Source: Acidobacteriota bacterium (GTDB lineage: Bacteria > Acidobacteriota > Blastocatellia > Pyrinomonadales > Pyrinomonadaceae). Taken from it: a DNA stretch of 38,080 bases. Both the position numbers and the translations under genes were made by a program. Under the pieces are notes generated by a model. The model did no database searches. It was not told the origin of the DNA and saw only the letters and a program-made list of their open reading frames with translations. Positions 2,346-11,566 of this stretch are shown here, in pieces. How positions within the stretch are numbered: the stretch's first letter is position 1; each line of letters starts with the position of its first letter. The DNA lies in assembly GCA_003222945.1 (NCBI GenBank), contig QHXM01000118.1, forward strand, positions 1 to 38,080. Direction: 5' to 3'.

Positions 2346-5127
2346 TCTCCAGCAGTTCGATAACAGCAATTGCGCCGGGTGCTAAAGTTATTCTGACGCT
2401 GCTCTGGCCGCTCTCGCTCGCTACCTCAAGCCGCTTGTCATCAACCCAATCGCTTGCCTGCGCGATTTGCTTCCCCTTAAGGCTCAATCTCACTTCGACC
2501 TTCGCGCTTCTGTCAACCTGCGCGAGACCCTGCTGAGGCTTTAGCACGCCCTTGTTGTTTATGACGGTTACGACCCAGCCGCGCTCGTTGCGATTGATTA
2601 AGTATTCTACTTCGCCGCTGACCTCAACGGGCGTTGCATCCATGAAAAGATGCGCGAGCATGTGTGCGGCAAACGGCGTCAGACGTTCGTCCTCCCCTAA
2701 CAGGTCAGGGAGAGCGCAGAAGACAACGCTCCCGCGACCAAGCTTGTTCACGGTGACAAGCGGATCGCCCGAAGGCGTCTGCATCAAAACCTGCACGCCC
2801 TTTTGTGCTTCCACGCGCTCGAAACGAAACACCTGCCCGTGCAAGTCAACGCTCGTTTCATTCGGCGATAGACAACGCGCATCATCAGCCTCGACTGTTG
2901 CGCCTGTCGATTTCACGCCGACCAACTCTTCCGGCAATCCTTTCGACTGCGCGGCGTTTATTACGACTACGCCTCCCTTGCGAACATAATCCTCAAGCCG
3001 CTTAGCCCACGCGGGACTCCATTCGATGCTCCCGCCTGCGACAACGGCACGATACGAATCAATCGCGTCCATTTTCGCATCGGAAGCGACGAGCACGTCG
3101 AAGATGTCGCCGAAGATGGAAGAGACGAATGCCTGGCGGTCTCCGGTAGCAGGCTCGCCTTCCGTGACGAGCGCTGGATAGTAAGCTGCGCCGAAAAGCT
3201 CGCGCAACGCGCGGTCCGATCTGCTTACTTGTGAAACTCCGAAAGGCCACTGCGGGTAGTCCGTCATCTCAAAGCCGTGCGCGGGGTCAAGCAGAAACGC
3301 AATGGGTGTGTAAGGAGTCCCGCGCTCCGTGTGCTTTTCTGCAAAGCGCATGAACTCATCAGTGATTCGTCCGACGGGATTCAGTTGAAAGGGATGCTCG
3401 CCCGGTCCGGGTTTGAAGAACTGATCGAAACCCTGTTCAAGATAGATGGCAGATGCGCCAGCCATGTAGTAGAGATAATAGCTCTTGCGATACCATGAAA
3501 GCGACGGACCCATTGTCGCGCCATAGCGTGTGTGAAAGAAATTGTCAGGCCCGGAGTAGCTCATCTGCCTTGTGAAGATGGTCGCGGTGTCTCCGAAATT
3601 CGGCGCGTGATAGTAGAGAAAATTTCCGCCGTACTGTCTGGCTGCTCCGCGCGTAAACGCGATTCGCATTGCTACGATTGGCTGCACTGCCGCAGTCTCC
3701 ATGCCTATTAGCCGCGTTCCCCATTCGGCCAGCGCGTGCGCGAAAGATGTGCTCGATGTTGATTGCGCCGGTATCAACTTGTCCCACATAGCGCCGATCC
3801 CTTTGGTGTGAAAGATTCCTTCCCATTTACGCGTCATCGCGTTTGTGTAAAAGATGCGATGAGCTTCCAGAAGCTCGCGGCGCGACATATTTGGAGATAT
3901 TTTCAACTCGCTCGCAGCGCTATCCCAGACATAGCCCACGCTCTCGCCGGAAATCCATCCTAGAAACTGATCGCGCAATTCTCCCGTCAAAAGTTTACAC
4001 GCGGCCTGCGCTTCGGCTTCGGACCACTGAACAGAGCCGTAGTTAATCAACACGGCGAATGGCACATGCGTCTCTCTCAGGTAGCGAAGAAACGGACTGC
4101 CTTCTTTCAAATACTCCGGCAGGTCGTTGATATATATGACGGGCACTACAAACTTGGAACTGAAGATGGGAACGTCCCGCGCGCCTTTATATTTTTTTAC
4201 GAACTCCTCGATTGGCTCTGCGTTGAACGGATAGAGCGGGCGCGCGTCCGACGCAGCGCTGCCGTAAAGCTTCCAGAACTCTTTAGAGATATTCCATGGC
4301 ATCAGAAAGTCGCGCCCCGCAACAGGTTTTCGACGCCATAGCGCAGGCACGTCATCTCTCGCGGCAGGTCCGATTAAGGAAGCGAGCGGAGTTCTATGCG
4401 CGGACCATTCGCGCAAATACCTTACGGCTGCAAACTCAGGCTTTCGTCTTCCTTCGGGCACAAAACTCAGATCGTTTGTGACGAGTACGCAATCAACGTG
4501 TCTGCGCGCTTCCGCAGCCTTCTCTATCTCTATGGAAATTCGCGCAGCCCCTTTCGCAAGCCTTCCACTCGCGCCGTCCCAAACGAAAGCCCACTCCCAA
4601 TACATGCTCACTTCATCGTGCGGGTCAATCAAATCCCCCGCGCCGAACTCGTGGCTGAAGACCTCTCGCCCGTTCTGAGTGATGCGGACACGAAAATTCT
4701 CCGTGCGTTTTGCCCAGTCCGCGTAGCGCACCCAGACTTTGTATTCGCCCGCTCGCGGAATCTCCAGGTCCTGATAGATCGCCGCGCGAGTTTCATCTGC
4801 GCTCGCCGCAGCAGAGTTCCATTCGCTCTCGCCTCCCTGCGACCATTCCGCCGAAACGCCCGGTCCATTCATTCCCCAGCCCGGAGCTTCGGCGCGCGAT
4901 TGCTTCGTCCACGAAGGATTCAAGACAGGCTCGTGGCGCTCTGTCTCCGCAAAGCCGCGCATGTTCTCGGCCTCGTACCAGAGATATTCAAATTGGCGTG
5001 AAGGCGAAGAAGAGTTTGAGTTTTGAGACGAAGCGATGCGGTCGAGTGAGAATAAGCAGAGAAGCGCAAGCATGAAACGAAGACAAAGCAACGCGGAGAA
5101 ACTGCGCATGAATCTGCTACTTTTCAT
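2341..5127 (-). CDS. Large secreted protein, glycoside-hydrolase-like with N-terminal CBM-like domain
   Basis: The product is 928 residues from the ATG at 5127, which has a GGAG eight bases upstream. The frame stays open further upstream, but that would overlap chdC and precede the signal peptide. Residues 1-34 are a signal peptide (hydrophobic ALLCLRFMLALLCLFSL, cleavage near ASSQ). Residues about 45-215 look like a CBM35/CBM6-type sandwich: WYEAENMRG at its start, AGEYKVWVRYAD, FRVRI and a closing VDCVLVTND. The middle, about 215-620, resembles a TIM-barrel glycoside hydrolase with many aromatic residues. It is followed by a Rossmann-like segment (YRAVVAGGSIEWS, DYVRKGGVVVINAA) like the trimerisation or glutaminase-like domain of beta-galactosidases. 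A beta-rich tail ends the protein. I cannot name the family or catalytic residues. A role in polysaccharide turnover outside the cytoplasm is inference. Confidence 0.6.
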   Translation of the reverse strand: MKSSRFMRSFSALLCLRFMLALLCLFSLDRIASSQNSNSSSPSRQFEYLWYEAENMRGFAETERHEPVLNPSWTKQSRAEAPGWGMNGPGVSAEWSQGGESEWNSAAASADETRAAIYQDLEIPRAGEYKVWVRYADWAKRTENFRVRITQNGREVFSHEFGAGDLIDPHDEVSMYWEWAFVWDGASGRLAKGAARISIEIEKAAEARRHVDCVLVTNDLSFVPEGRRKPEFAAVRYLREWSAHRTPLASLIGPAARDDVPALWRRKPVAGRDFLMPWNISKEFWKLYGSAASDARPLYPFNAEPIEEFVKKYKGARDVPIFSSKFVVPVIYINDLPEYLKEGSPFLRYLRETHVPFAVLINYGSVQWSEAEAQAACKLLTGELRDQFLGWISGESVGYVWDSAASELKISPNMSRRELLEAHRIFYTNAMTRKWEGIFHTKGIGAMWDKLIPAQSTSSTSFAHALAEWGTRLIGMETAAVQPIVAMRIAFTRGAARQYGGNFLYYHAPNFGDTATIFTRQMSYSGPDNFFHTRYGATMGPSLSWYRKSYYLYYMAGASAIYLEQGFDQFFKPGPGEHPFQLNPVGRITDEFMRFAEKHTERGTPYTPIAFLLDPAHGFEMTDYPQWPFGVSQVSRSDRALRELFGAAYYPALVTEGEPATGDRQAFVSSIFGDIFDVLVASDAKMDAIDSYRAVVAGGSIEWSPAWAKRLEDYVRKGGVVVINAAQSKGLPEELVGVKSTGATVEADDARCLSPNETSVDLHGQVFRFERVEAQKGVQVLMQTPSGDPLVTVNKLGRGSVVFCALPDLLGEDERLTPFAAHMLAHLFMDATPVEVSGEVEYLINRNERGWVVTVINNKGVLKPQQGLAQVDRSAKVEVRLSLKGKQIAQASDWVDDKRLEVASESGQSSVRITLAPGAIAVIELLEK

Positions 5128-10535: not shown

Positions 10536-11087
10536 TTACCCTTCATCTTTACGCTTCCAAAGCTTTTGTGAAGGGATGCGTAGCGCCCGGTTGAACTTGC
10601 TCGAAGCGTTCTCCCAGGCGATTATTTCAGTCAACTCTACAATCGCATCATCGTCGTAAAACTCTCGCAGACGCGCGAACAGTTCATCCGTGACTTCGCG
10701 CCCCGTGATCGTCATAGAGTCCGCGTAGCGAAGTGCGACCTTTTCTGCTTCCGTATAAAGCGGGCTGGTCTCGTAATCCGCAAGAGCCACTATTTTTTCA
10801 TACGTCACGCCAAGCTCACTGCTCACGGCAGCGTTTATGTCCTGTCAAAAATCGCAGCCGTTTATTGAAGCCACGCGGCGATTTATCAACGCCTGAAGAC
10901 GCGCGTCAATCAAACCAGAGCCTTCGATGCCGGTCCACATCGCACGCGCCCCGCGAAAGATCGTAGGACGCCGCGCGTAAACCAGATGATTCAGAAGCGG
11001 CGCTCCCCACTTCTTCGCCTGCGCATCGAAGACCTGCTTGATATAGCCGTCAACATCGTTCGGCTCAACGCCGTCAATGCGTGCCAT
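10536..11087 (-). CDS. AhpD-like / carboxymuconolactone decarboxylase-family protein with in-frame UGA (probable selenoprotein)
   Basis: The family normally has a redox CxxC in an all-helical domain and acts in thiol-dependent peroxide reduction or related chemistry. Read from ATG 11087 (GGAG five bases upstream), the frame runs 80 codons to a TGA at complement 10845-10847. It continues in the same frame without shift to a normal stop at 10536, giving 183 residues. Upstream residues end RRVASINGCDF and downstream residues continue QDINAAVSSELGVTYEK, exactly as family members run through NGCxFC. So the TGA stands where the second cysteine of CxxC belongs (Cys78, Sec81). Conservation on both sides (ALRYADSM, VELTEIIAWENASSKFNRAL) argues against a decaying gene. 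A SECIS-like hairpin follows. It overlaps or abuts the MOSC gene upstream (co-transcribed). The alternative is a single nonsense mutation, or Cys insertion. Confidence 0.75.
10817..10833 (-). promoter_or_regulatory. SECIS-like hairpin downstream of the in-frame UGA
   Basis: In the minus-strand RNA a 6-bp stem CGCUGC/GCAGUG (with one G-U pair) closes the loop CGUGA. The loop G-U begins after 18 nucleotides following the UGA. This matches the spacing I recall for the E. coli fdhF SECIS (18 nucleotides to GGU). The lower stem is weak, and no bulged U is obvious. The hairpin is entirely within coding sequence, as bacterial SECIS elements are. Confidence 0.55.
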
Positions 11088-11101
11088 CTCTTCTCCGTTA
11101 A

Positions 11102-11566
11102 TCAATTAAGCACTCGCACAGTTTGTCCGACCTTCAATCGTCCTGTCCTTAAGACGCGGGCATAAAGTCTTGACTCGCCCGGATGTATTTTCTGCGAGAT
11201 GCGTTTGAACTTGCGGCCAATGAAAGATTCTCTAATCGTGGGACAAGGGCCTGCATAAGAGCTTATCTCTATTACAACTTCATCGCCGAGCGCCAGCCTG
11301 CTTCCCGGCTCAAGCTCTTTCCAGTCCAGACCGACAACAGTTACATTCTCGCCAATTGAGCCTGGAAAGATTGGATGCCCTTCGTCCTGTAGCATTGTTA
11401 TATGCTCTAGGGAATAAAGACAGAGTGCGCGCTCCGGTCCACCGTGAATTATAGGCTTGGCCTGCCGGTCGCAAGTTAAGCCTGTAAGTGTCAGGTCGGC
11501 TTCGCGCACAGGGCGTTTGGGAACTCCGCCGTCTGAACAGTTGAGTTGAAAGATGTAGCCTTCCAT
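11102..11566 (-). CDS. MOSC domain protein
   Basis: A stand-alone 154-residue MOSC (molybdenum cofactor sulfurase C-terminal) domain. The family binds molybdenum cofactor or carries sulfur; members include YiiM-like and mARC-like proteins. Visible hallmarks are HGGPERALCLYS (about 41-52), FPGSIGENVTVVGLDW (about 67-82), LGDEVVIEIS, and the conserved cysteine in YAGPCPTI (about Cys108). Its stop codon lies just upstream of the AhpD-like selenoprotein gene (within 20 bases of its ATG), so the two form a tight transcription unit. That suggests a joint redox or detoxification role, but no substrate can be read from the sequence. Confidence 0.85.
   Translation of the reverse strand: MEGYIFQLNCSDGGVPKRPVREADLTLTGLTCDRQAKPIIHGGPERALCLYSLEHITMLQDEGHPIFPGSIGENVTVVGLDWKELEPGSRLALGDEVVIEISSYAGPCPTIRESFIGRKFKRISQKIHPGESRLYARVLRTGRLKVGQTVRVLN

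Follow-up and report, generated by a model that had tools for sequence, protein, structure and literature searches.

An in-frame UGA in an AhpD-like gene

The window, by which we mean the whole stretch of DNA that was analysed (38,080 nucleotides, contig QHXM01000118.1 of the assembly of a soil-type acidobacterium), carries on its minus strand a frame of 183 residues with the CMD/AhpD fold, which runs from an ATG at 11087 to a TAA at 10536-10538. The features assigned at this locus, with the evidence for each, are as follows.

10536..11087, minus strand: candidate YciW/AhpD-like selenoprotein gene, with UGA read as selenocysteine (translation with TGA as U, NF053654, CMD, predicted fold)
10845..10847, minus strand: putative selenocysteine (Sec) codon TGA, residue 81 (sequence; every close homologue aligns a TGA here)
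10854..10856, minus strand: codon of Cys78, first residue of the CxxU motif (alignment, invariant Cys)
10817..10833, minus strand: predicted bacterial SECIS-like hairpin CGCUGC-CGUGA-GCAGUG (consensus fold, covariation, frozen GCU codon, predicted fold)
11091..11096, minus strand: GGAGAA, a purine-rich, ribosome-binding-like stretch directly before the ATG, in the region ...AACGGAGAAGAG-ATG (sequence)
11102..11566, minus strand: MOSC-domain gene, 14 nt upstream of the candidate selenoprotein gene (PF03473, E 2.7e-18)

Between the ATG and the TAA there is a single in-frame stop, the TGA of codon 81. The motif at this codon is C78-D79-F80-U81, the UGA being the second position of a CxxU that lines up with the CxxC of Atu0492 and PA0269. 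Two profile matches extend across the TGA: Pfam CMD (PF02627) over residues 44-123 with an E-value of 3.5e-10, and NCBIfam NF053654.1 (GroundWater_YciW) over residues 1-179 with 364.4 bits, above the curated cut-off of 310. The profile for peroxidase-related enzymes, TIGR01926, scored 31.2 bits and did not reach its cut-off of 81.8. Conventional ORF calling splits the gene into two pieces, 10845-11105 and 10536-10826. These observations bear out a preliminary description of the DNA, made from its letters, which had seen one TGA break the minus-strand frame from ATG 11087, had placed it at the second Cys of a CxxC, had found the frame unshifted and both halves well conserved, and had expected a standard annotation to report two fragments or a pseudogene.

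Conservation of the UGA codon among homologues

The two fragments that a mechanical ORF caller yields are also what one would obtain from a pseudogene whose 3' half is decaying behind a true premature stop at the TGA. Selection on the two sides of the codon argues against this. Measured against its two closest homologues, the gene has a dN of 0.10-0.16 on either side of the TGA and a dS that ranges from 0.7 to saturation; downstream of the TGA, dN is 0.10-0.13 and dS about 1.5, and purifying selection equals that on the upstream part. Scanning the genome collection, we retrieved 14 near homologues with intact frames and a further one with an upstream frameshift (L037), and all 15 have TGA at the identical codon. 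Their hosts belong to Acidobacteriota, Chloroflexota (Ktedonobacteria), Actinobacteriota, Rokubacteria and Eremiobacterota. When genomes of the phylum and class were added, TGA was present in 30/30 distinct close sequences from five or more phyla, a set that was itself picked for TGA at an identity of at least 45%; among the matches listed, we saw no close homologue at or above this identity with Cys or any other non-TGA codon at the position. A genome of the same genus also has TGA there. The preliminary description would have counted a relative with the same TGA and a disrupted downstream frame against a selenoprotein; the downstream frames of the relatives are intact. With the TGA and the frame conserved in close homologues, the identical TGA fixed across these phyla and no other lesion in the gene, we rejected the pseudogene as very improbable. 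Judging by the shared column and by dN far below dS on both sides, the TGA at codon 81 is not there by chance.

A misreading of a Cys codon (TGC or TGT) as TGA deserves consideration, given that the source is a metagenome-assembled genome (MAG) and that L037 shows that frameshifts or errors do occur in some family members. The same TGA is nonetheless present in independent isolates and MAGs, among them the complete genome of Ktedonosporobacter, the isolate genomes of Ktedonobacter and Dictyobacter, and the genome of the same genus, and for this reason we rejected a sequencing or assembly error, to which we assign a negligible probability. L037 itself, around 3001-3300 in Dictyobacter vulcani, keeps the TGA and the hairpin, and its upstream frameshift reflects either sequencing error or decay.

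More distant relatives carry Cys in the Sec column, namely L080 (CAFCVDIN), L123, L124 and relatives from Bacillus, so that the in-frame UGA aligns with a Cys of homologous proteins. In a sister subfamily, a single genus contains both states (L125 TGA, L123 TGT and L124 TGC), which points to a recent exchange between Sec and Cys.

A SECIS-like hairpin downstream of the UGA

The predicted hairpin begins 11 nt past the UGA, a spacing also like that of E. coli fdhF, and has a stem of 6 bp and a loop of 5 nt, with 17 nt from the UGA to the loop. The loop, CGUGA, has G as its second nucleotide and U as its third, and the loop variants among homologues are CGUGG, CGUGA and GGUCG. In the consensus fold of 15 sequences, 97.8% of the pair cells hold standard pairs, and slid controls gave far lower values. 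The outer pair is CG in nine and UA in four (together 13/15), and two other pairs alternate between GC and GU; two-sided covariation is limited to one pair of the hairpin, and 6/30 sequences cannot form the outer pair. The codon of Ala86, which lies within the stem, is GCT (GCU) in 30/30 sequences, while two to four different codons occur at each of the other positions with an invariant Ala.

Published rules for bacterial SECIS elements specify a loop of 3-9 nt, a stem of 4-16 bp, a G as one of the first two nucleotides of the loop, a distance of 16-37 nt from the UGA and a minimum free energy of -7.5 or below (PMC13188914). The hairpin agrees with these rules, the energy doing so marginally: it ranges in the window from -6.8 (17 nt) to -7.9 kcal/mol (30 nt after the UGA). 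The energy is stronger in the relatives that were folded, and longer stretches can fold otherwise. No Rfam family matched over the hairpin, even at relaxed thresholds; the case for a SECIS element therefore rests on the comparative alignment and the published rules.

Selenocysteine machinery in the same genome

The assembly that holds the gene is a fragmented MAG of 4.74 Mb in 325 contigs, about 90% complete, and the sel genes and the CxxU gene are consequently joined through binning only. In it we found the full set of genes that the preliminary description had wanted to see, selA, selB, selC and selD: a tRNA-Sec with anticodon UCA (71.6 bits), SelB (378 bits), SelA (454 bits, truncated by the end of its contig) and SelD (361 bits). 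SelD has its own in-frame TGA, in the motif SCAGU, and is thus a second candidate selenoprotein gene of the genome (L019:1501-2427, on contig C321).

Stop-codon read-through occurs in bacteria, and one could suppose either that a near-cognate tRNA reads the UGA without Sec or that UGA is reassigned throughout the genome, for instance to Trp. TGA terminates 19/32 genes of the window and is the commonest ordinary stop codon there; the code is therefore standard and a reassignment was rejected. Since distant relatives align Cys at the position and the Sec machinery is complete, we regard reassignment and read-through together as extremely improbable.

The association with SelB extends to other genomes. 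In a survey of the phylum, SelB scored above the family cut-off in 33/34 genomes with a full-length TGA copy as against 254/396 overall (hypergeometric P 2.7e-6, with phylogeny ignored and the tally taken among the matches listed). One genome with a TGA copy (G110:C5:3451-3936, locus L087) is 95% complete and shows no SelB near the cut-off, which may mean that a contig is missing or that the selenoprotein gene is stranded.

On this evidence, the locus very probably encodes an intact, all-helical selenoprotein of 183 residues with the AhpD/CMD fold, a member of the YciW-related family (COG2128 / NF053654) into which Sec would be inserted at UGA 81 by way of SelB and the hairpin. The TGA fixed among homologues and the sel genes present in the assembly favour the probable selenoprotein, a plausible new AhpD-like CxxU member, that the preliminary description had proposed.

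Predicted fold and active site

An AlphaFold2 model built from the 15-sequence alignment has a pLDDT of 94.2 and a pTM of 0.89, and the PDB matches to this predicted structure are CMD/AhpD-like proteins with TM scores of 0.61-0.86. The best structural match, which is also the second best by profile, is the debrominase Bmp8 (6ohi/6ohj; E 1.5e-7, TM 0.84, ~21% identity over the fold); peroxidase-related proteins and AhpD of the PA0269 type are also among the best solved structures.

The proton relay of AhpD consists of Glu, Cys, His/Tyr, Cys and His (PMC3141380). The candidate selenoprotein has C78/U81 at the family position of the CxxC or CxxU, and lacks the relay Glu at C-12 and the relay His at the second Cys+4 (PMC3141380), where it has Ala66 and Asn85. 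Throughout the clade of the window, position 66 holds a non-acidic residue, either Ala or another, and an invariant Asn occupies position 85 (U+4). The term AhpD-like in the preliminary description thus holds for the fold and the position of the CxxC, and the protein is not a canonical AhpD because it has neither the relay Glu nor the relay His. PA0269, Atu0492 and M. tuberculosis AhpD share with it the same all-helical CMD fold and have a CxxC in the same place, but here Sec stands for the second Cys, and Ala and the invariant Asn stand for the relay Glu and His. CxxC and CxxU relatives of the EY[C/U]xxSH and AYCLNMH types keep both relay residues, and the relay-less copies that we saw are nearly all Sec, the Cys exceptions being L080, L123 and L124. 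This distribution suggests that Sec may compensate for the loss of the relay.

One could go further and propose a distinct type of selenoenzyme, in which Sec replaces the Glu/His relay of AhpD, since a selenolate needs no base to deprotonate it, so that the relay is lost, with Glu giving way to a small residue and His to Asn, and Sec becomes nearly obligatory. We put this forward as a tentative idea that is rather less probable than its converse; were it true, the CMD fold might here serve a new substrate or work by a new mechanism. A family that combines near-universal Sec with a missing AhpD relay lends itself to testing whether selenium can replace an active-site proton relay.

Gene neighbourhood and proposed function

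The MOSC gene upstream is possibly co-transcribed with the candidate selenoprotein gene. A MOSC gene 78% identical to it also precedes the homologue on another acidobacterial contig (L025), and none lies next to the homologues at the other loci checked, where the neighbours are unrelated (ADP-ribosylglycohydrolase, S20, signal peptidase II, TonB, HD, luciferase-like and others). At the window and the loci checked we found no conserved gene context that points to a substrate, and the flanking genes that we examined do not include ahpC.

The sequence gives the frame, the TGA, the hairpin, the Sec machinery, the predicted fold and the conservation; Sec insertion in vivo, the redox chemistry and the substrate are what we infer. 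SelB with Sec-tRNA(UCA) would bind the hairpin that lies immediately 3' of the UGA and insert selenocysteine at codon 81, giving a product whose redox pair, Cys78-x-x-Sec81, stands where a helix begins. The Sec81 selenolate would most likely attack an oxidised substrate, either a hydroperoxide or a disulfide of a protein or small molecule; Cys78 would then resolve the selenenyl intermediate by forming a Se-S bond, which a cellular thiol reductant would reset. As to the function of the protein, the likeliest candidates are a selenol/thiol redox enzyme and a weak hydroperoxidase. Because the canonical relay residues of AhpD are missing, peroxidase activity is something that we infer.

The same absence of the AhpD proton relay, and the rank of Bmp8 among the structural and profile matches, would also fit a selenoprotein that has nothing to do with peroxide, a reductive dehalogenase or other reductase like Bmp8. 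Such an enzyme falls within the selenoprotein reading and competes with its functional step only. The identity to Bmp8 over the fold is low, other AhpD-like proteins match almost equally, and we found neither dehalogenation nor pyrrole genes nearby at the loci examined; moreover Bmp8 has CxxC where this protein has CxxU, and the biosynthetic context is lacking here. We therefore consider a dehalogenase or other reductase unlikely, and favour the selenol/thiol redox enzyme or weak hydroperoxidase.

Relation to known selenoprotein families

AhpD-like CxxU selenoproteins of COG2128 were reported in the 2005 survey of the Sargasso Sea (PMC1088965), in agreement with the statement in the preliminary description that they are known from metagenomic surveys; the family also appears in later reviews, PMC9312934 and, under the name TIGR01926 (CxxU), PMC13188914. 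With the Sargasso Sea COG2128 (YciW) family the protein shares the CxxU motif, the Sec position, a downstream hairpin and a CMD protein of the YciW type; it differs in its TIGR01926 score (31 bits, below 81.8) and in belonging to a clade without the relay Glu and His. NF053654, named 'YciW-related (seleno)protein', matches over the full length, its name allows for Sec, and there is no difference at the family level. The gene is accordingly another member of NF053654, in a Pyrinomonadaceae-like genome, and is not new in kind. Our search of the literature on YciW and groundwater found no dedicated paper on NF053654. Reading the UGA as Sec saves the gene from being split or called a pseudogene by standard annotation, and would document a Pyrinomonadaceae-like acidobacterium that uses Sec and has complete machinery for it, including a SelD that itself contains Sec.

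Finally, we observed further acidobacterial CxxU AhpD-like copies that keep the relay Glu and His (L084, L085, L086, L088, L091, L093, L097, L100 and L102). The stop-free Cys relatives of the EYUxxSH-type branch are often found in genomes without SelB, and the relay-keeping CxxU copies of Acidobacteriota (EYUxxSH and similar) constitute a second, separate Sec branch of the peroxidase-related family.
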